Positions 5,280 through 36,188 of a DNA stretch of 47,640 nt are shown one piece after another. Location of the stretch: assembly GCF_000773685.1 (NCBI RefSeq), contig NZ_JPQO01000200.1, positions 1 through 47,640 of the forward strand, written 5' to 3'. The translations under genes were made by a program, and so were the position numbers. This DNA is from Acinetobacter sp. HR7. GTDB taxonomy: Bacteria; Pseudomonadota; Gammaproteobacteria; Pseudomonadales; Moraxellaceae. Every line of letters begins with the position of its first letter. Position 1 is the first letter of the stretch. The notes under the pieces were generated by a model, which worked only from the letters and a program-made list of their open reading frames with translations, had not been told where the DNA came from and ran no database searches.

Positions 5280-6485
5280 ATGCCTGCATATCAATTTATC
5301 GCGCTTGATGCCTCGGGCAAGCAGCAAAAAGGCGTGCTTGAAGGAGACTCTGCACGTCAGATCCGTCAGCAATTACGTGACAAAGATCTGATTCCGGTCT
5401 CCGTCGATCCGGTCGAGCAGAAAGACAAGCACTACCGGCCACGCTGGTTTGAAAAAAGCATCACGGCTTATGATCTGGCACTGATGACCCGACAATTATC
5501 GGTGCTGGTGGCTGCCGGTATTCCGCTGGAAGAAGCGATTCGTGCCGTGGGCAAGCAGAGCGAAAAGGTGCATGTGCAGAACCTGCTGATGTCCGTGCGT
5601 TCCAAGGTGCTGGAAGGGCACAGTCTCGCGCAGGGTTTGCAGCAATCTGGACGGTTTCCGGAACTATATATTGCCACCATTGCGGCGGGTGAGCGTTCTG
5701 GACATCTGGATCTGATCATGGATCAGCTGGCGGACTATACCGAAAACCGCTTTGCCATGCAGAAAAAAATTCAGGGCGCGATGATCTATCCGATCATTTT
5801 GCTGCTGATGTCCTTTGCCATTGTCATGGGACTGATGACTTATGTGGTACCGGACATTGTCAAAACCTTTGACCAGAGTAAAGATGCCTTGCCGTGGATC
5901 ACCGTGGCTTTAATGAAAGCCAGCGATTTTATTCGGATGGCTTGGCCTTTTCTATTAGCGGGTAGCGCCGTCGGTATTTTCCTGTTAATCCGTTTTCTGC
6001 GGACGACAGCAGGGCATTATGCCTTTGACCGGCTGACTCTAAAATTACCGCTGTTTGGGAAATTATCGCGTGGCATTAATGCCGCACGTTTTGCCAGTAC
6101 CTTATCGATTCTGACCCGTTCTGGCGTACCACTGGTTGATGCACTAAAGATTGGTGCAGCGGTAAGTAATAACTGGGTGATTCGCGATGCAGTGAATCTG
6201 GCAGCAGAAAAAGTGACTGAAGGTGGCAATTTGGCGACTCAGCTGGAGCGTAGTGGTTATTTCCCACCGATGATGGTACAAATGATTCGCAGTGGTGAAT
6301 CTTCCGGTGAGCTGGACCGGATGCTGGAGCGGGCATCGACTATGCAGGACCGCGAAGTGACCACACTGATTTCGACTTTACTGGCTTTGCTGGAACCACT
6401 GATGTTGGTGCTGATGGCGAGTATTGTATTGGTGATCGTGATTGCAGTGATGCTACCAATTGTAAATATGAATAATATGATTTAA
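5280..6485 (+). CDS. gspF: Type II secretion inner-membrane platform protein GspF
   Basis: Polytopic inner-membrane platform protein of the type II secretion system, which couples the GspE ATPase to pseudopilus assembly. It starts with the family's typical MPAYQFIALDASGKQQKG N-terminus and has two T2SSF repeats (roughly residues 70-190 and 270-395). Three hydrophobic segments lie near 168-192, 220-240 and 370-397. The length of 401 is standard. It is followed 73-88 bp later by gspG, with which it probably forms an operon. The other gsp genes are not in this window. Confidence 0.95.
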   Translation: MPAYQFIALDASGKQQKGVLEGDSARQIRQQLRDKDLIPVSVDPVEQKDKHYRPRWFEKSITAYDLALMTRQLSVLVAAGIPLEEAIRAVGKQSEKVHVQNLLMSVRSKVLEGHSLAQGLQQSGRFPELYIATIAAGERSGHLDLIMDQLADYTENRFAMQKKIQGAMIYPIILLLMSFAIVMGLMTYVVPDIVKTFDQSKDALPWITVALMKASDFIRMAWPFLLAGSAVGIFLLIRFLRTTAGHYAFDRLTLKLPLFGKLSRGINAARFASTLSILTRSGVPLVDALKIGAAVSNNWVIRDAVNLAAEKVTEGGNLATQLERSGYFPPMMVQMIRSGESSGELDRMLERASTMQDREVTTLISTLLALLEPLMLVLMASIVLVIVIAVMLPIVNMNNMI

Positions 6486-10813: not shown

Positions 10814-12526
10814 TTACATATTAGGGTAGTTCGGACCACCCGCACCCTCAGGGGTTACCCAAGTGATGTTTTGAGATGGGTCTTTGATGTCACAGGTCTT
10901 GCAGTGTACACAGTTCGCTGCATTGATCTGGAAGCGTTTCGAACCGTCATCATTTTCCATGATTTCATAAACGCCGGCAGGGCAGTAGCGCTGAGCAGGC
11001 TCATCCCATTTTGGCAGGTTTACGTTCACTGGAATTGAAGGATCAGTCAGTTTCAGGTGAGCAGGCTGGTTCTCTTCATGTACCGTATTCGAAATAAACA
11101 CTGACGACAGACGGTCAAAGGTCAGTTTGCCATCCGGTTTCGGATAATTCGGTTTGAAGTTCACTGCATCAACAGTTTTCAGCGTCTTGAAGTCTGGCAC
11201 CAGGTCATGCAGGGTAAATGGAACCTTGAAGACGTTCTGGTCAATAAAGTTGAATGCACCACCGATCCATTGACCAAACTTGTGCATTGCAGGGCCGAAG
11301 TTACGCGCGCTATAAAGCTCTTCTTTTAGCCAGCTGTTGTTGAACTTGTCGGTATAAGCAGTCAGTTCTTTTTCGAAGAAGTCTTCACCTTCAGTCACAC
11401 GAGCAACCGCAAGGTCACCACCTTTTTCTACACCAGCCTTAATTGCTTCAAACACTGCTTCACCACACAGCATGCCTGATTTCATCGCAGTGTGTGAGCC
11501 TTTGATCTTGGCAAAGTTCAGGAAGCCAGCATCATCACCGATTAAGCAGCCGCCTGGGAAGGTAAATTTAGGCAGAGAGTTGAAACCACCTTTGACTACT
11601 GCACGCGCACCATAAGAAATACGTTTACCGCCTTCCAGATACTGTTTAATCAGTGGATGGGTTTTCCAGCGCTGCATTTCCATGAATGGATACATATGTG
11701 GGTTTTCATAAGAAAGATCCACGATCATGCCCAGAGTCACCTGGTTGTTTTCAGCGTGGTACAGCCACCAGCCGCCTGAAGAACCGGTTTCAGATAAAGG
11801 CCAGCCGGCACCGTGCATCACCAGACCTGGTTTGTGCTTGGCAGGATCGATTTCCCACAGTTCTTTAATCCCGATACCGTAGTGCTGAGGATCAGCATCT
11901 TTGTCCAGATTGAATTTCTGGATCAGGCGTTTACCGAGATGACCACGGCAGCCTTCAGCGAATAAAGTATATTTCGCATGCAGTTCATAACCTGGAGCAA
12001 AGTTATGGGTTGGTTCACCATCTTTACCAATGCCCATATCACCAGTCTGGATGCCTTTCACTGAACCATCTTCATGGTACAGAATTTCAGCAGCAGCAAA
12101 GCCCGGGAAGATTGATACTTCCAGCTCTTCCGCTTTCTGGCCTAACCAGCGAACTACGTTACCCAGTGAGATCACGTAGTTACCATCGTTATGCATGGTT
12201 TTTGGCACCATCCAGTGCGGTGCTTCTTTATAAGTAGTTTCAGACAGGGTGAAGTAGGTTCTGTCTTCGGTCACAGGAACATTCAGCGGAGCGCCTTCTT
12301 CTTTCCAGTTCGGGAAAAGTTCATTGATCGCACGCGGTTCCAGCACAGCACCGGAAAGAATATGAGCACCCACTTCGGAGCCTTTTTCCACGACACAAAC
12401 GGACAGATCATTCAGGTTGTTTTCAATTGCAAGCTGACGGATTTTGATCGCCGCAGAAAGACCCGCAGGGCCTGCACCTACGATGACTACGTCAAACTCC
12501 ATCGATTCGCGTTCGATGTGCTCCAT
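10814..12526 (-). CDS. Electron transfer flavoprotein-ubiquinone oxidoreductase
   Basis: Membrane-associated FAD/4Fe-4S enzyme that passes electrons from reduced ETF (from fatty-acid beta-oxidation and amino-acid dehydrogenases) to ubiquinone. The N-terminus has the FAD dinucleotide-binding motif DVVIVGAGPAGLSAA. The C-terminus has the cluster-binding cysteines in CPAGVYE and NCVHCKTCDIKDP and the typical GGPNYPNM end. The length of 570 is typical. GGAG lies 8 nt before the ATG. It is a stand-alone gene, divergent from the DUF1285 gene with a 186-bp gap. The etfAB genes are not in this window. Confidence 0.97.
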   Translation of the reverse strand: MEHIERESMEFDVVIVGAGPAGLSAAIKIRQLAIENNLNDLSVCVVEKGSEVGAHILSGAVLEPRAINELFPNWKEEGAPLNVPVTEDRTYFTLSETTYKEAPHWMVPKTMHNDGNYVISLGNVVRWLGQKAEELEVSIFPGFAAAEILYHEDGSVKGIQTGDMGIGKDGEPTHNFAPGYELHAKYTLFAEGCRGHLGKRLIQKFNLDKDADPQHYGIGIKELWEIDPAKHKPGLVMHGAGWPLSETGSSGGWWLYHAENNQVTLGMIVDLSYENPHMYPFMEMQRWKTHPLIKQYLEGGKRISYGARAVVKGGFNSLPKFTFPGGCLIGDDAGFLNFAKIKGSHTAMKSGMLCGEAVFEAIKAGVEKGGDLAVARVTEGEDFFEKELTAYTDKFNNSWLKEELYSARNFGPAMHKFGQWIGGAFNFIDQNVFKVPFTLHDLVPDFKTLKTVDAVNFKPNYPKPDGKLTFDRLSSVFISNTVHEENQPAHLKLTDPSIPVNVNLPKWDEPAQRYCPAGVYEIMENDDGSKRFQINAANCVHCKTCDIKDPSQNITWVTPEGAGGPNYPNM

Positions 12527-12712
12527 GTAGGACTCCTCATATTACATTCGGTGGCAACCAAAATCGGGGTGATCAGGTGCTGCCATGAGTATTTATAATT
12601 CCTGGACACAAAAAGCTTAGTGTCTTTAATCTTGTGGGCTAGTATAGTTTTAAACCCAGTTGAAGCCAATTGGCTGAAACATATTATTTTTCCGTCATTA
12701 AGGTCTTCTACG

Positions 12713-13324
12713 ATGAATAACGCAGCAGAGAACAATCATTCGACGAAAAATCCAGCCATGAGCGATGATAAAAATTTAACGAATATTGCACAATACATAA
12801 AAAATGCACAGGGCAGTCACAAAAGGTCAATCCCCCCTCTAGAGCAGTGGCATCCAAAGCATTGTGGGGCAATGGATCTCAAGGTTTTTGCTAATGGAGA
12901 ATGGTGGCACGAAGGTCAATTGATCAAACGCCAGGCCATGATTGACCTGTTCTCGACTGTACTGTGGAAGGAAGATGGCAAGTTTTACCTGAAAACTCCG
13001 GTTGAGCAGATCGAAATTGAAGTGGAAGATGAACCGCTGTTTGTCAATCAGGTGGATCAGGTTGAGATTGAAGGGAAGACTTATCTCCAGCTCACTACGA
13101 CAACGCAGGATGTGATTATTGTAGATCAAGAGCATCCGATTTTTATGCGGGCTTTTGGTGATGAATTGCGTCCTTATGTGCATGTGCGTTTCGGCATCAA
13201 TGCATTGATCCAGCGTGCTGCCTTTTTACACCTGGTGGAAATGGGGGAGCTCAGTGAAAATTCGGATGGAGCGACAGTTTTAAGCTTGAAAAGTGGAGAT
13301 TTAGACTTGCAATTAAGCACCTGA
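12713..13324 (+). CDS. DUF1285 domain protein
   Basis: 203 residues, no signal peptide, probably cytosolic. The segment from about residue 40 (IPPLEQWHPKHCGAMDLKV) through FANGEWWHEGQLIKRQ matches what I know of the DUF1285 family, whose role is unknown. The first ~35 residues are polar and probably disordered. The open frame continues upstream to 12620, but that part is unlike the family. ATG 12713 (AAGG ~10 nt upstream) or ATG 12758 are the plausible starts. The murI gene follows 48 bp later on the same strand. Confidence 0.82.
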   Translation: MNNAAENNHSTKNPAMSDDKNLTNIAQYIKNAQGSHKRSIPPLEQWHPKHCGAMDLKVFANGEWWHEGQLIKRQAMIDLFSTVLWKEDGKFYLKTPVEQIEIEVEDEPLFVNQVDQVEIEGKTYLQLTTTTQDVIIVDQEHPIFMRAFGDELRPYVHVRFGINALIQRAAFLHLVEMGELSENSDGATVLSLKSGDLDLQLST

Positions 13325-22638: not shown

Positions 22639-22716
22639 CATAAGATGTACTTATGCGGTACTTAAATAGACGGTATCGCACGCGGTGATTTTCGTGAAGG
22701 AGGGGTACATCTTATG
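22639..22716 (+). promoter_or_regulatory. Structured leader pairing with the start codon of the next gene
   Basis: CATAAGATGTAC (22639-22650) is perfectly complementary to GTACATCTTATG (22705-22716), whose last three bases are the ATG of the small membrane-protein gene. Inside the 54-nt loop, TGCGGTAC (22654-22661) can pair with GTATCGCA (22673-22680). AAGGAGGGG (22697-22705) lies directly before the occluding strand. Such a fold would hide the start codon. If transcribed as one RNA it is a candidate translational switch; as DNA it is simply an inverted repeat. Confidence 0.45.
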
Positions 22717-22911
22717 CAATCCAAATCATTTGTTGCTGCATGTTTTATGTTGATGTCAGGTCTGCCTAATCTGGCTTATGCCCGGGATCACGTTCACCCA
22801 ACCATTATTTTTCTGAGTGCGACCATCATCTTTCTGATGATTCTAACTGTGTATATCGTGTTTAAAATTCGCCGTTCTTTACGTAACGATTTAGACAAGC
22901 CGGCAAATTAA
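22714..22911 (+). CDS. Small signal-peptide-bearing membrane protein
   Basis: 65 residues. A signal peptide with a likely cleavage after LAYA (near residue 23) is followed by a short HVHP segment, one hydrophobic helix (about 30-50) and a basic tail (KIRRSLRNDL). It is predicted to sit in the inner membrane with the tail in the cytoplasm. A strong AAGGAGG lies somewhat far upstream (about 11 nt). No family recognised. It resembles the 65-residue protein at 26929 in layout but not clearly in sequence. Confidence 0.62.
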   Translation: MQSKSFVAACFMLMSGLPNLAYARDHVHPTIIFLSATIIFLMILTVYIVFKIRRSLRNDLDKPAN

Positions 22912-25409: not shown

Positions 25410-25799
25410 TTAGTCACATTGTTCGATCGCTTCTTTGGCAAAGTGGTTGCGCAGTGCCAGGAAGTTCTTCTGCACGGTCTCGCTGTGCAGGTCAAATTTT
25501 TGTGCAGTACTGGTTTTGTCGCGCTGGAAGGTTGCTGAACCAGCGTCAATTAAAGTCAGACCTTTAAATGACCATTGTTCGATCACGCGGCCTTCTTCAA
25601 GCTGGCCTTTAAATTCGATGACGCATTTGTCCATGAATTTGGTCAGTTTTGCACTGTTATTGGCGGTTTCAGGATAAACGTCAATATTTTGAACTTCCTG
25701 TAATACCCCAAGTTCCAGTTGTGGAATGGTTGGCTGTGATGTACATGCTGTAAGTGCGATACCCGCAAGAGTCGTCATAATGAGAGTTTGAAATTTCAT
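25410..25799 (-). CDS. Small lipoprotein of unknown function
   Basis: 129 residues with a lipoprotein signal peptide and lipobox LTAC (lipidated Cys19). The mature domain has two further cysteines (DKCVIEF and the C-terminal EQCD) that could form a disulfide in the periplasm. No family recognised. It is divergent from the AT-rich HEPN-like gene, and a 10-bp inverted repeat lies in the gap. Confidence 0.75.
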   Translation of the reverse strand: MKFQTLIMTTLAGIALTACTSQPTIPQLELGVLQEVQNIDVYPETANNSAKLTKFMDKCVIEFKGQLEEGRVIEQWSFKGLTLIDAGSATFQRDKTSTAQKFDLHSETVQKNFLALRNHFAKEAIEQCD

Positions 25800-25834
25800 G
25801 TGCTTCTTTCTTGTAGAGTGTTGTTAAGGTGAGT

Positions 25835-25861
25835 ATAGGCAATTCAGATGAAATTGCCTAT
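25835..25861. promoter_or_regulatory. 10-bp inverted repeat in a divergent promoter gap
   Basis: ATAGGCAATT (25835-25844) and AATTGCCTAT (25852-25861) with a 7-nt spacer lie between the divergent lipoprotein gene and the HEPN-like gene. The 17-bp centre-to-centre spacing fits a dimeric repressor site; no convincing -35/-10 pair could be fixed next to it. Confidence 0.4.
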
Positions 25862-25904
25862 GATCTAAAAACTAATTTTTAAACAATAATCTACCCTTAT
25901 AGAT

Positions 25905-26711
25905 ATGAATCACCTACTAGACTTATTAGATCAAATAGAAAATTTAGAAGATCAGTTACGTGATCATATTAATCGGGGAGTTCTTCATTACCAATTATTA
26001 AATGATAAGCATAAGTGGTGGATGCTATGTAGTGCTTTAGATGTTTTGGGCGATACATCTATAGCCTTTAAAGATTATTTGCAAACGGAGTTCCCTAAAG
26101 AAACAGGGCTGAAATACATTTATTGCTATGGAATTTTGCAATGTTTCATTCTTCAACAAGATAGTTTGAAGCATCTATATGAAGTATTTGCAGTTCAGTG
26201 GGAAGTAACTAGTGAGTTGAAGCAAATTCGTAAAGTTAGGAATGCTTCGATAGGTCATACAGTTTTAAACAATGAAGGAGGAAGAAGCGAAAAGGATAGG
26301 AATGAATTTAATAATTTTATTTCCCGTATCACTATTAATAAATTTGGTTTTGATCTACTGAGATATTCAAAAAAGACGAAAGATACAGTTTATGAAGAAA
26401 TTCATATTCATGAGTTGCTTACGAAGCAACTGGATGAAGTGATTGTTCTATTAAGACGACTAATAAAAGAAATCATTACTATGGAAAACGAAGAAAAAAA
26501 GAAATTTGAAAATGAAAAAATAGTTGATTTACTGCCAATTTCTTATTGGTTTGAAAAAATTCATAGCATTTATGATGAGCAAAATAAGTTATTTGCTTAT
26601 ACAGCTTTGGATCATATCCAAAAGCAATATTTAGAGTTGAAACAGTCTTTAGAAAATAGATTATTGCAGGGTGAAGACTGGTTTAATGAAATTAAAGAAA
26701 ATCAATGTTAG
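25905..26711 (+). CDS. HEPN-like protein of unknown function
   Basis: 268-residue, mostly helical, hydrophilic protein without signal peptide. RKVRNASIGHTV holds Arg112-Asn113 and His118, an R-N-x4-H pattern like the Rx4-6H active-site motif of HEPN ribonuclease domains. The C-terminal half is Glu/Lys-rich and may form coiled coils (about 180-260). The region is visibly more AT-rich and uses AT-ending codons compared with neighbours, suggesting acquisition by transfer. No clear ribosome-binding site precedes ATG 25905. A 40-residue ORF overlaps its end. The HEPN assignment rests on one motif and helical character only. Confidence 0.6.
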   Translation: MNHLLDLLDQIENLEDQLRDHINRGVLHYQLLNDKHKWWMLCSALDVLGDTSIAFKDYLQTEFPKETGLKYIYCYGILQCFILQQDSLKHLYEVFAVQWEVTSELKQIRKVRNASIGHTVLNNEGGRSEKDRNEFNNFISRITINKFGFDLLRYSKKTKDTVYEEIHIHELLTKQLDEVIVLLRRLIKEIITMENEEKKKFENEKIVDLLPISYWFEKIHSIYDEQNKLFAYTALDHIQKQYLELKQSLENRLLQGEDWFNEIKENQC

Positions 26712-26827
26712 ATAATGATGAGCATACTGCACGTATATGTAATTTTTATCTTGATGAAAAGAATGATTATTTCAAAAGATTAATGGCGGAAATTGATGAA
26801 AAGTATGAAATAAGAAATGATCTCTAA
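26705..26827 (+). CDS. 40-residue ORF overlapping the HEPN-like gene
   Basis: Starts at ATG 26705 inside the last codons of the HEPN-like gene (ATG then TTAG, a 7-bp overlap in another frame) and ends at TAA 26827. The product (starting MLDNDEHTARICNFYLDEK) is acidic and strongly charged and looks like a helical small protein. The overlap would allow translational coupling. It could be a true small partner protein, a remnant of a longer gene, or chance in AT-rich DNA. Confidence 0.4.
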   Translation: MLDNDEHTARICNFYLDEKNDYFKRLMAEIDEKYEIRNDL

Positions 26828-26928
26828 AGCGGATTTTTTTAAATAATAAGTCTATGTGAAAAATACTCTATCTCAAAGCATGCTTGATCCGAGAGTAGAA
26901 TCTAAATATAAAAACTAGAAAGAAAGAT

Positions 26929-27126
26929 ATGAAAAGTTTTACTCAGATTTTTGCAATATGTATGTTGCTTGTCTTACCCATCATTACGCATGCGGATGGG
27001 GTTATGCCATTAGGCCAACTATTCGTGATGAGATTCTTTATCTTGGTTGTGATTGCATTCCTAGCGCTGTTATTGGGTGGGGAGTTTGATGTTAAAGACG
27101 ATAAAAATCAGGATAAAGACAAGTAA
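26929..27126 (+). CDS. Small signal-peptide-bearing membrane protein
   Basis: 65 residues. A signal peptide (KSFTQIFAICMLLVLPII) with probable cleavage after THA is followed by one hydrophobic helix (about 31-50) and a highly charged Asp/Lys tail. Likely anchored in the inner membrane. AGAAAGA just upstream is a modest ribosome-binding site. It ends before a strong terminator. No family recognised. Confidence 0.6.
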   Translation: MKSFTQIFAICMLLVLPIITHADGVMPLGQLFVMRFFILVVIAFLALLLGGEFDVKDDKNQDKDK

Positions 27127-27146
27127 GAAATTATTTTCACCATAAT

Positions 27147-27177
27147 AAAAAAAACCCGCTCTAAAGCGGGTTTTTTT
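27147..27177. terminator. Bidirectional rho-independent terminator
   Basis: AAAACCCGCT (27151-27160), loop CTAA, AGCGGGTTTT, with flanking A- and T-runs. It separates the convergent small membrane-protein gene and glyS. Confidence 0.93.
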
Positions 27178-27190
27178 ATTGAATCAGAAC

Positions 27191-29260
27191 TTAGTGTTGA
27201 AGCACTGAAATATCTGCAACTTTAGTGAACAGGTCACGCAACTGAGCAAGCAGACGTAAACGGTTTGCTTTCAGGTTAGCATCATCCGCCATTACCATGA
27301 CACCGTCAAAGAACGCATCTACTGGCGCACGCAGGGCAGCCAATGCAGACAACGCCGCAGTGTAATCTTTAGAAGCAAATAGTGGCTCAACCACTGGTGT
27401 GATTTTTTGCAGTTCAGCGAACAATGCTTTCTCAGCATCTTCAACCAAGTTTGCTTCAACCACAGCACCTTCAGGTGCTGCTTCTTTGGCAAGGATGTTC
27501 GCAACACGCTTGTTCGCAGCAGCAAGCGCAGCAGCTTCAGGCAATGCACGGAAGTGATTTACCGCATTTACACGCTTGTCAAAATCAAGTGGAGATTTTG
27601 GTGACAACGCTTGAACAGCCTGGATCACATCAACATCAACGCCTTGGTCTTCGTATTTCGCACGGTAACGACCTTCCAGGAATGTAACTGCATCCGCCAG
27701 AGTCTTATCGTGGTCTTTCAATATGTCGCCATACGCAGCCAATGCCAACTTGATCAGGTCTTCAATAGATACATCCAGTTCATTTTCAGTCACCAGACGT
27801 AGGATACCAATGGCAGAACGACGCAGCGCAAACGGGTCTTTAGAACCTGTAGGTGCCTGCCCGATACCGAAAATACCAGTCAAGGTATCTAGACGGTCCG
27901 CAAGGGCAACGGTTGTACCTGTTTTAGTCTTAGGCAGAACATCACCTGCGAATTTAGGCAGGTACTGTTCACCCAACGCTTCAGCCACTTCGAGGTTTTC
28001 ACCTTCAAGACGTGCGTAGTAAGTACCCGCGATACCTTGAAGTTCTGGGAATTCGCCCACCAGCTCAGAAGTTAAGTCGCATTTCGCAAGTAAAGCTGCT
28101 TTTTCAGCATCTTCCGCTTTGGCACCAGTAATCGGCGCCAGTGCGACAGCCAGTTTGGCAATACGTTGAGATTTGTCCCAAAGTGTACCCAGTTGTGCCT
28201 GGAATACCATATTGGCCAGTTTCTCTTTGCGAGAAGCCAGTGGCTGTTTCTGGTCTTGCAGGAAGAAGAACTCGGCATCAGACAGACGTGGACGAACCAC
28301 TTTTTCATTACCTTCAATGATCTGGCTTGGGTCTTTAGACTCAATGTTCGAAACGGTAATGAAGTAAGGCTGTAATTTATTTTCAGCATTCACCAGACAG
28401 AAATATTTCTGGTTGTCCTGCATGGTGGTGATCAGGGCTTCTTGAGGAACCGCAAGGAAGCGTTCTTCGAAGCTTGCACGTAATGCTACAGGCCATTCCA
28501 CCAGTGCAGTGACTTCGTCACGAAGATCCGCAGGAACGATGGCAATCGCATTCACTTCATCCGCCAGCGCTTTTACTTGCTGGTCGATGATGGCTTGACG
28601 CTCTTCAAAAGACGCTACCACTTTCGCAGCGCGTAGGGCATCCAGGTAAGCATCAGCATTTGCCAGGGTAATCGCTTCAGGAGCGTGGAAACGGTGACCA
28701 TAAGTCACGTTGCCTGCTTTGTGATCCTGAATCGTTGCATCAATCACTTGATCATCTTTCAGCAAGACTACCCATTTTACTGGACGTACGAATTCGGTAC
28801 GGCTTGCTGCAGAACGCATGCGTTTTGCGATTGGCAACTGATCCAGTGAATGTTGCAGGATTTGTGGCAGTAAAGCGTCCAGGCTTTGACCTTTGACATC
28901 TTTCAGGTAGCAAACTTTTTCAACTTTACCGGCCTGGAAAGTAGATATCTGATCAATGGTGATGCCTTGACCACGCATAAAGCCTTCAAGCGCTTTGGTT
29001 GGTTTGCCGTCGCTATCATAAGCGGCTTGCACAGCAGGGCCGTCAAAACGTTTTTGAGTGTCGGCTTGCGCACCATCTACATTCACGATTTTCAAAGCCA
29101 GACGACGTGGCGCTGCATAGGCTTCGATCGCATCGAAAGCCAGACCCGCATCTTTTAAGCCTTTTTCAGTTTCGGCTTTTAACGCGTCACGTAATTTTTT
29201 CAGGCTTTTTGGTGGAAGTTCTTCACAGCCAAGTTCAAATAAAACTGTATGTTTAGACAT
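27191..29260 (-). CDS. glyS: Glycyl-tRNA synthetase beta subunit
   Basis: 689-residue beta subunit of the tetrameric (alpha2-beta2) bacterial glycyl-tRNA synthetase, which carries the tRNA-binding role. The N-terminal [17 protein letters not shown], the middle [11 protein letters not shown] and [16 protein letters not shown] segments and the C-terminal anticodon-binding-like domain ([10 protein letters not shown]) are typical. Its ATG overlaps the glyQ stop (TAATG), giving tight co-translation with the alpha subunit. Confidence 0.98.
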
Positions 29261-35584: not shown

Positions 35585-35660
35585 TGGTGGGTTGTGTGGG
35601 GTTCGAACCCACGACCAATAGATTAAGAGTCTACTGCTCTACCAACTGAGCTAACAACCC
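35585..35660 (-). tRNA. tRNA-Lys (anticodon CTT)
   Basis: 76 bases including encoded CCA. Acceptor GGGTTGT/ACAACCC, D-arm TTAGCTCAGTTGGTAGAGC, anticodon loop CTCTTAA (CTT reads AAG) and T-arm GTGGGTTCGAACCCCAC are all visible. Last gene of the four-gene lysine cluster; 222 bp downstream of the next one. Confidence 0.97.
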
Positions 35661-35882
35661 TGAGTAAGGATTAGTGAACTTAAAGCAAAGCTTTAAAATT
35701 TCACCCGACCACAAGAAAAAATCTAAGACTTTTTCACAGTACATTCAAGTACTGTAGGTTTGCAATCGGTAAGCAAAATTTCGAGAATGGCAATACAAAA
35801 CCGGGAATGGTTTGTTGTCTTGGTCGGAATATGCAGGTTTCGTTATCTTCGCAGACTGGAAGAAAGAAGCCCTAAGAAAGAA

Positions 35883-35958
35883 TGGTGGGTCGTCCGCGAC
35901 TCGAACGCGGGACCAACGGATTAAAAGTCCGCTGCTCTACCAACTGAGCTAACGACCC
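35883..35958 (-). tRNA. tRNA-Lys (anticodon TTT)
   Basis: 76 bases including CCA. Acceptor GGGTCGT/ACGACCC, anticodon loop CTTTTAA, T-arm with TTCGAGT. Identical to the copy at 36113-36188. The 222-bp spacer to 35660 holds no gene; it contains only a 7-bp hairpin ACAGTAC/GTACTGT (35736-35755). Confidence 0.97.
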
Positions 35959-36015
35959 ATTCGGATAATCAAAGTAGCTTTGATTGAAATTTCTAAAAAG
36001 AGTTTTTAGAAATGA

Positions 36016-36091
36016 TGGTGGGCCGTCCGCGACTCGAACGCGGGACCAATGGATTAAAAGTCCACTGCTCTACCAACTGAGCTAACGGCCC
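36016..36091 (-). tRNA. tRNA-Lys (anticodon TTT)
   Basis: 76 bases including CCA. It differs from its two neighbours by paired changes: acceptor GGGCCGT/ACGGCCC instead of GGGTCGT/ACGACCC, and an anticodon-stem pair changed from C-G to T-A. The base pairing is kept. Confidence 0.97.
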
Positions 36092-36112
36092 ATCAAGGGA
36101 TATCAAATTTAA

Positions 36113-36188
36113 TGGTGGGTCGTCCGCGACTCGAACGCGGGACCAACGGATTAAAAGTCCGCTGCTCTACCAACTGAGCTAACGACCC
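36113..36188 (-). tRNA. tRNA-Lys (anticodon TTT)
   Basis: 76 bases including CCA; first gene of the cluster behind the promoter at 36208-36235. Acceptor GGGTCGT/ACGACCC, anticodon loop CTTTTAA. Confidence 0.97.

Follow-up and report, generated by a model that had tools for sequence, protein, structure and literature searches.

The two overlapping open reading frames (ORFs) at 25905-26827 of the window, the whole 47,640-nucleotide stretch of DNA analysed here, are parts of one gene that has been cut by a 28-bp deletion. The window belongs to the 3.12 Mb genome of an Acinetobacter species, assembled in 227 contigs (G000), and the gene lies in it between a lipoprotein-like gene and glyS, at a site whose contents differ between genomes and include known defence genes. 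On balance, the gene probably specifies a one-gene defence effector of the HEPN RNase type that carries a C-terminal control module and is broken in the window strain. In this proposal, a single accessory gene, inserted at an Acinetobacter site that takes many cargo genes, would encode a protein of ~316 residues composed of an N-terminal HEPN-type domain and a C-terminal module of ~115 residues. The putative active site would comprise R112-N-x4-H118, with D46 and D50 as candidate acidic residues. The protein would most likely act as a metal-independent endoRNase whose activity is blocked by its own C-terminal module; phage infection or some comparable stress would lift this block. The released RNase would then cut RNA and so stop growth or phage production, a one-gene form of abortive-type defence, and the frameshifting deletion in the window strain would have taken away the end of the controlling module.

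The larger of the two window ORFs (25905-26711, plus strand) encodes 268 residues, including the R112-N113-A-S-I-G-H118 stretch that had drawn attention to it in the first-pass annotation (codons at 26238-26258). Residues ~1-195 form the N-terminal HEPN-like domain, and the C-terminal module begins within the same ORF. The reported contrast in base composition is also real: the GC content of this ORF is 0.302, with two 600-bp bins over it at 0.315 and 0.285, against about 0.41-0.51 in the nearest other bins. Matches to the 268-residue protein at E<=1e-3 were found in 8 of 175 genomes of the genus, its own included, and six of these share at least 65% identity. The close relatives are 99% (G163), 90% (G139), 87% (G042), 86% (G075) and 65% (G126) identical, and a contig of an A. 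kookii genome carries a relative at 87%. More distant matches within the genus comprise one copy at 35% (G153) and two copies at 30% on a single plasmid contig (G022). This patchy presence, which had been put forward as a check on whether the gene is accessory, shows that it is not a core gene.

Relatives of the gene are rare beyond the genus too. Profile searches recovered one other genome of 369 in a sample of the class and six others of 398 in a sample of the phylum. The genus of one match yielded two of 59 genomes, both already known, and a second phylum sample yielded five of 349, in which the only new match was weak and partial (G574, E=6e-5). Among plasmids, the profile identified one relative from Marinobacter and one from Acinetobacter; a plasmid search with a short relative (L034) gave no match, and no relative was present in phage records or in three scans of viral contigs. 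The family occurs in short forms (~180-210 aa), which consist of the N-terminal domain only, and long forms (~310-325 aa), which add the C-terminal module. One short relative belongs to a pair of ORFs of very low GC content (26% and 29%) that, judged by eye, lie inside a his-type biosynthetic cluster of another genome (G881; L033:9571-10110 and 12371-13246).

The site occupied by the gene is bounded on the left by the lipoprotein-like gene (25410-25799, minus strand, 129 aa) and on the right by the glyS-like gene (27191-29260, minus strand), both labelled by eye. Of the 175 genomes of the genus, 152 have a match to the former, and all have one to the 3' part of glyS. Of the 72 genomes with the strongest lipoprotein matches (E<=6.7e-48), the site was followed in the 70 that also carry glyS on the contig of the match; the remaining two, together with about 80 weaker lipoprotein matches except that of G153, fall outside this set. 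Across the 70 genomes, the distance between the two flanking genes ranges from 272 bp to 39.6 kb. Six of them hold the HEPN-like gene, two others with long intervals (G150, 10 kb, and G109, 40 kb) were left out, and 62 were analysed for other cargo. At least one mechanically called ORF of at least 90 aa is present in 60 of these 62 intervals, giving 92 such ORFs overall. The cargo varies between species, although certain families turn up repeatedly, in clusters of up to seven members.

Part of this cargo resembles known defence systems. In a PADLOC comparison at 1e-5, the 92 cargo ORFs match 330 models, whereas 39 other window ORFs together yield one model, through a single protein. These figures overstate the contrast, since PADLOC models are redundant and the numbers are not counts of systems. 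Seven of ten chosen cargo proteins have PADLOC matches. The types matched include a retron reverse transcriptase (RT_I-A, L115, 1.6e-133), DRT UG17 (L107, 2.8e-139), the Gabija pair GajA (1.5e-207) and GajB (3.6e-114) in L113, Old (L102, 2.4e-192), PDC-M63A (L098, 4.5e-72) and TIR-type models (L086). The other three of the ten (L065, L074 and L093) look HEPN-like by eye, with RNLLAH, RNKIIHE and RGSIVHG stretches, yet have no PADLOC match at 1e-5. Among the 25 of 41 cargo families listed in a Pfam comparison, AAA_15/AAA_21, OLD-like TOPRIM, SLATT_5, TIR_2 and UvrD domains are found, as are transposases, DUF3060 and YadA-type proteins; not all of the cargo is therefore defensive. Other cargo at the site (L054-L119 and window 25800-27191) includes a nucleotidyltransferase, lipoprotein and membrane genes and many unassigned genes. 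The lipoprotein-glyS interval is thus a defence hotspot, with fixed flanks, interchangeable cargo and a share of defence genes across genomes, and the defence role that had been raised as a possibility for two-gene HEPN modules is supported, as far as location goes, by the retron, Gabija, Old, DRT and TIR-type genes found at this site. A relative of the gene seems to have arrived at this site on two occasions: in G153 (L119:4514-5266 and 5398-6330), the distant relative, flanked by attC-like sites, lies directly beside glyS and adjoins a cargo gene of 250 aa, with a lipoprotein homologue ~3.4 kb upstream.

The boundaries of the site are themselves recognisable. A left boundary of the form TGTTG...GAGTATA (25832-25862 in the window) occurs, whatever the cargo, in 54 of the 63 intervals made up by the window and the other 62, and a CTATA-type end follows 24-40 bases on in 51 of the 62 intervals, as against 101 of 1602 control segments. 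Within it lies the 10-bp inverted repeat described earlier as preceding the gene. The repeat is real (arms at 25835-25844 and 25852-25861), but it is not specific to the gene, as versions of it adjoin unrelated cargo. Among the 62 intervals that hold different cargo, 23 keep at least eight of the ten arm pairs, where ~1.6 would be expected from shuffled sequences, a count drawn from related genomes and so not from independent events; perfect repeats are found in four of the 62. Because imperfect versions recur beside unrelated cargo, the repeat belongs to the flank, and the perfect copy of the window is one version of a flank element. A role as the operator of the HEPN-like gene was rejected, since the element is present beside different cargo as well.

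On the right, the site is bounded by the glyS terminator, which in the window is a palindrome resembling a terminator where glyS ends (3' end, 27153-27172); a pattern for it gave matches in 29 of 63 intervals. The gene has its stop codon inside this palindrome in G042 and G075, and in the window a degenerate version of the terminator that closes the gene in those two genomes can be made out by eye at 26824-26839 (plus strand). A small ORF of 65 aa (26929-27126, plus strand), resembling a membrane peptide, lies outside the gene, and its start is also present in the same-species copy. Similar ORFs of 65-92 aa with signal-like and membrane segments recur near the site (window 22714-22911 and 26929-27126; L056) and possibly represent one family of small peptides that are secreted or lie in the membrane. 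Elsewhere in the window, a cluster of four tRNA-Lys genes, one with a CTT and three with a TTT anticodon, occupies 35585-36188.

Several relatives of the gene are associated with integron cassettes. Ten distant relatives were compared (L007, L011, L012 and L028-L034, with G574 left out), and attC-like sites stand beside the gene in five of them, on both sides in three (L029, from G626; L030, from G811; L007, from G153). The other two, on the Marinobacter nauticus VT8 plasmid pMAQU01 (L011) and on an Acinetobacter plasmid (L012), have one attC-like site past the stop codon. A strict attC consensus missed real sites, and a looser pattern was used instead; this pattern also matches unrelated DNA, and therefore only sites adjacent to the gene or within the L029 array were counted. 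In L029, the gene lies within an array of 27 attC-like repeats that share a core, most of them 114-123 bp as matched, and the loose pattern gives 38 matches (30 separate ends) on one strand and two on the opposite strand. Bottom-strand hairpin z scores are -3.4 for L012, -2.7 and -2.6 for L007, -2.3 for L030, -1.8 for L029 and a weak -1.6 for L011, and the outer stem of attC forms in the folds of L012, L029 and L030 and is absent from those of L007 and L011. No attC-like site was seen for the remaining five distant relatives, and the looser pattern gave no match in the window between 25000 and 27400 and none adjoining the gene in the five intact copies (L002-L006). An integron integrase is present in G268, G626, G811 and G898, and was absent from the eight Acinetobacter genomes tested, of which G153 is 64% complete, and from the Marinobacter plasmid. 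In G811, genes for RloB and an AAA_21 ATPase lie near the attC-flanked relative, on the other strand (L030:1246-3226).

The C-terminal module has a distribution of its own. A tblastn search with the L029 protein matched 1582 plasmid records, whose names are mostly those of Klebsiella, Escherichia and other enterobacteria. Among the 30 of these matches listed, one is a full-length Marinobacter gene and 29 span residues 203/205-309 at ~41% identity. Nine of the plasmid loci were read, and in eight a gene of 116 aa is annotated at the match (for example L045:2977-3327 and L048:2860-3210); in three loci tested, no remnant of the N-terminal domain was found near it. A site-specific integrase gene lies within the stretch in five of the nine loci, and annotated defence or toxin genes lie upstream in six, including SIR2 with an ATP-binding protein, an S-4TM effector with or without a nucleotidyltransferase, VapBC and Abi. 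The surroundings of the 116-aa gene are possibly a plasmid defence site. On pSE11-1, the gene directly downstream encodes a RiboL-PSP-HEPN-like protein (WP_001316850.1; PF18735, E=6.7e-5, below the cut-off) with an RNDLVH stretch. A fixed pairing of the 116-aa gene with a HEPN gene was considered and rejected, since at least 80% of this two-gene stretch is held in 77 of 2193 matching plasmid records and the neighbouring gene varies across the nine loci. These observations suggest that the C-terminal part is a separable module and not a member of a fixed pair.

The carriage of relatives on cassettes gives rise to the strongest alternative to an anti-phage effector, namely a self-contained RNase, toxin-antitoxin-like or acting in stress dormancy, that stabilises integron arrays or slows growth and whose C-terminal module is a fused antitoxin-like inhibitor. 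The attC-like flanks of the relatives agree with it, as do the plasmid genes in which relatives of the C-terminal module stand alone and the stress-dormancy role proposed for an integron-cassette HEPN family in excerpts of an earlier survey (PMC3710099). The Acinetobacter copies, however, share their site with anti-phage genes, half of the ten distant relatives have no visible attC, and the integrase is absent from the eight Acinetobacter genomes, one of them 64% complete. We consider this alternative a fairly unlikely one. The preferred reading, a defence effector, can be extended to a new one-gene anti-phage family in which a HEPN-type RNase carries a sensor or inhibitor module at its C-terminus. 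The module would be the one that stands alone on enterobacterial plasmids, beside varying and often defence-type genes, and the family would be spread by integron cassettes and through the lipoprotein-glyS hotspot. This extension is put forward tentatively, as a possibility that we ourselves rather doubt.

The assignment of the protein to the HEPN RNases has to be weighed separately. Over 11 diverse relatives, four of which share 18-25% identity with the first, the residues D46, D50, Y75, Q85, R109, R112 and H118 are invariant and N113 is nearly so. The R-N-x4-H motif noted at the outset is therefore a conserved feature of the family, its Rx5H spacing lies within the Rx4-6H active-site pattern of HEPN RNases, and D46 and D50 supply candidate acidic residues N-terminal of the motif. 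The search for remote homology that had been suggested as a check gave the assignment no support. The protein scored above the cut-off for none of the families in Pfam or NCBIfam, and PADLOC assigned no family to the two window ORFs or to eight family members. When the profile of the N-terminal domain was compared by hhalign with two curated HEPN families, PF05168 (21 sequences) and AbiU2 (4 sequences), the probabilities were 0.2% and 0.5%, no better than a FliS control (0.2%). Sequence searches of the PDB gave nothing convincing; the best profile match of the N-terminal domain there is FliS, another helix bundle (E=0.02), and in the long cassette forms phage shock protein A matches the C-terminal part (E=0.008). 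Two AlphaFold2 runs, on only two sequences each, gave mean pLDDT values of 35.7 and 38.3, below usable confidence. With the family, hhalign and PDB comparisons negative and the structure models unusable, the HEPN assignment rests on the motif.

This leaves room for a different kind of helical bundle, such as a chaperone, an adaptor or an RNA-binding protein, in which R-N-x4-H has another role. Such a protein would fit the FliS match and the lack of a profile match to the two HEPN families, but not so readily the invariance of R112 and H118 across 11 relatives. In addition, the FliS match is confined to profile positions 6-108 and thus leaves the conserved motif unexplained. A non-HEPN bundle is accordingly judged unlikely, and a HEPN-type fold with RNase activity is the reading to which the motif points.

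That the two window ORFs derive from one gene follows from comparison with the five intact copies (G163, of the same species, and G139, G042, G075 and G126, from other Acinetobacter). In each, a single protein of 311-323 residues is encoded, the frame runs past the point at which the window ORF stops, and a separate partner ORF is absent. The shorter window ORF (26705-26827, plus strand), whose ATG overlaps the 3' end of the longer one just as the first-pass annotation stated, consists of the last 40 codons of the gene in their original frame. The family profile recognises both ORFs as consecutive parts, positions 1-269 and then 274-318, with the latter matching window 26696-26818 in the region of the 40-aa ORF (E=1.4e-11). 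In a DNA alignment with the intact copies, the 28-bp gap is unique to the window copy, and its junction lies at a 3-base microhomology (26696-26699, plus strand) when compared with the same-species copy. The 268-aa ORF thus contains the first ~265 codons of the gene and, as a result of the deletion, several codons in another frame before a stop. Purifying selection on the intact copies is evident from dN/dS values of 0.10-0.18 in nine of ten pairs, with dS near or above 2 in three of these nine and the tenth pair saturated, and of 0.10-0.25 in the C-terminal part. The plain reading is that the deletion in the window strain is recent and inactivating or truncating. As it shifts the frame and removes the end of the C-terminal module, the window copy has probably lost its function, or has at least been changed.

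The fragmented state of the assembly, in 227 contigs, might raise the suspicion that the deletion is an assembly error and the gene of the strain intact. Real deletions often show short microhomology at their junctions, as is the case here, and over the first 2.7 kb compared, G000 agrees with its conspecific G163 but for two substitutions and two gaps, of 28 bp and 1 bp; an error is therefore very unlikely. Past 2.7 kb the two copies no longer align properly (421 mismatches in 4048 columns), as the interval of G163 is ~1.4 kb longer. Least credible of all is the first-pass annotation's two-gene toxin-antitoxin or defence module, a 268-aa HEPN toxin with a translationally coupled 40-aa partner, for which the overlap of the ATG with the end of the longer ORF speaks, and which is refuted as an ancestral design by five copies in one continuous frame, in which the 40 codons are a C-terminus conserved at a dN/dS of 0.10-0.25. 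The 40-aa ORF is likewise rejected as an antitoxin or partner, being the C-terminus of the gene itself in the intact copies and in the profile match; a search of plasmid records with it gave no match.

With the gene restored, the tempting two-gene module is corrected, and the partner, which was the main strangeness of the locus, falls away. What remains is a HEPN-like family that is small and unclassified, conserves the active-site motif, is absent from Pfam, NCBIfam and PADLOC, and links integron cassettes with a chromosomal defence site. New anti-phage systems may well be sought among the cargo of the compact lipoprotein-glyS hotspot, where the genes that lack an assignment are promising candidates. 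The plasmid gene that is related to the C-terminal module and stands alone, in turn, offers a handle on whether this module controls HEPN effectors, as the proposed mechanism would have it. A literature search that took in mostly titles and the beginnings of abstracts, and few subscription journals, found neither the family, beyond a 2013 note of an integron HEPN family, nor the lipoprotein-glyS hotspot.

Among known systems, several invite comparison with the gene described here. The HEPN-MNT (HepT/MntA) toxin-antitoxin systems, whose HEPN component belongs to PF05168, have an RNase motif of the Rx4-6H type and an accessory distribution. The present family is alike in both respects, but differs in that a separate partner gene is absent from the five intact copies and the profile comparison with PF05168 is negative. 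The pSE11-1 protein WP_001316850.1 has a HEPN-type RN...H stretch (RNDLVH) and adjoins a relative of the C-terminal module; however, a relation between the two HEPN-type domains was not seen, and the pairing is that of a minority, 77 of 2193 records. Another parallel is the integron-cassette HEPN family noted by Anantharaman et al. (2013; PMC3710099), which, according to excerpts of that paper, is represented by PDB entry 3jrt, occurs in gammaproteobacterial cassettes and was proposed to act as an RNase in stress-induced dormancy. Both families, as far as those excerpts describe the earlier one, have a motif of the Rx4-6H type and are carried on cassettes. In contrast to the family so described, the long form reported here adds a C-terminal module of ~115 aa, and in six Acinetobacter genomes the gene stands at a fixed chromosomal site without attC; 3jrt is also absent from the PDB matches (E<=5 or 10) of the family profiles and of two single relatives. 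More generally, integron cassettes are presented as stores of anti-phage genes in excerpts of a recent review (PMC12409362, citing Darracq 2025 and Kieffer 2025). The six Acinetobacter copies at the glyS site, which have no attC beside the gene, differ from the cassettes outlined there, whereas the small attC cassettes that carry relatives of the gene, and the inference of a defence-type role, are shared with them.
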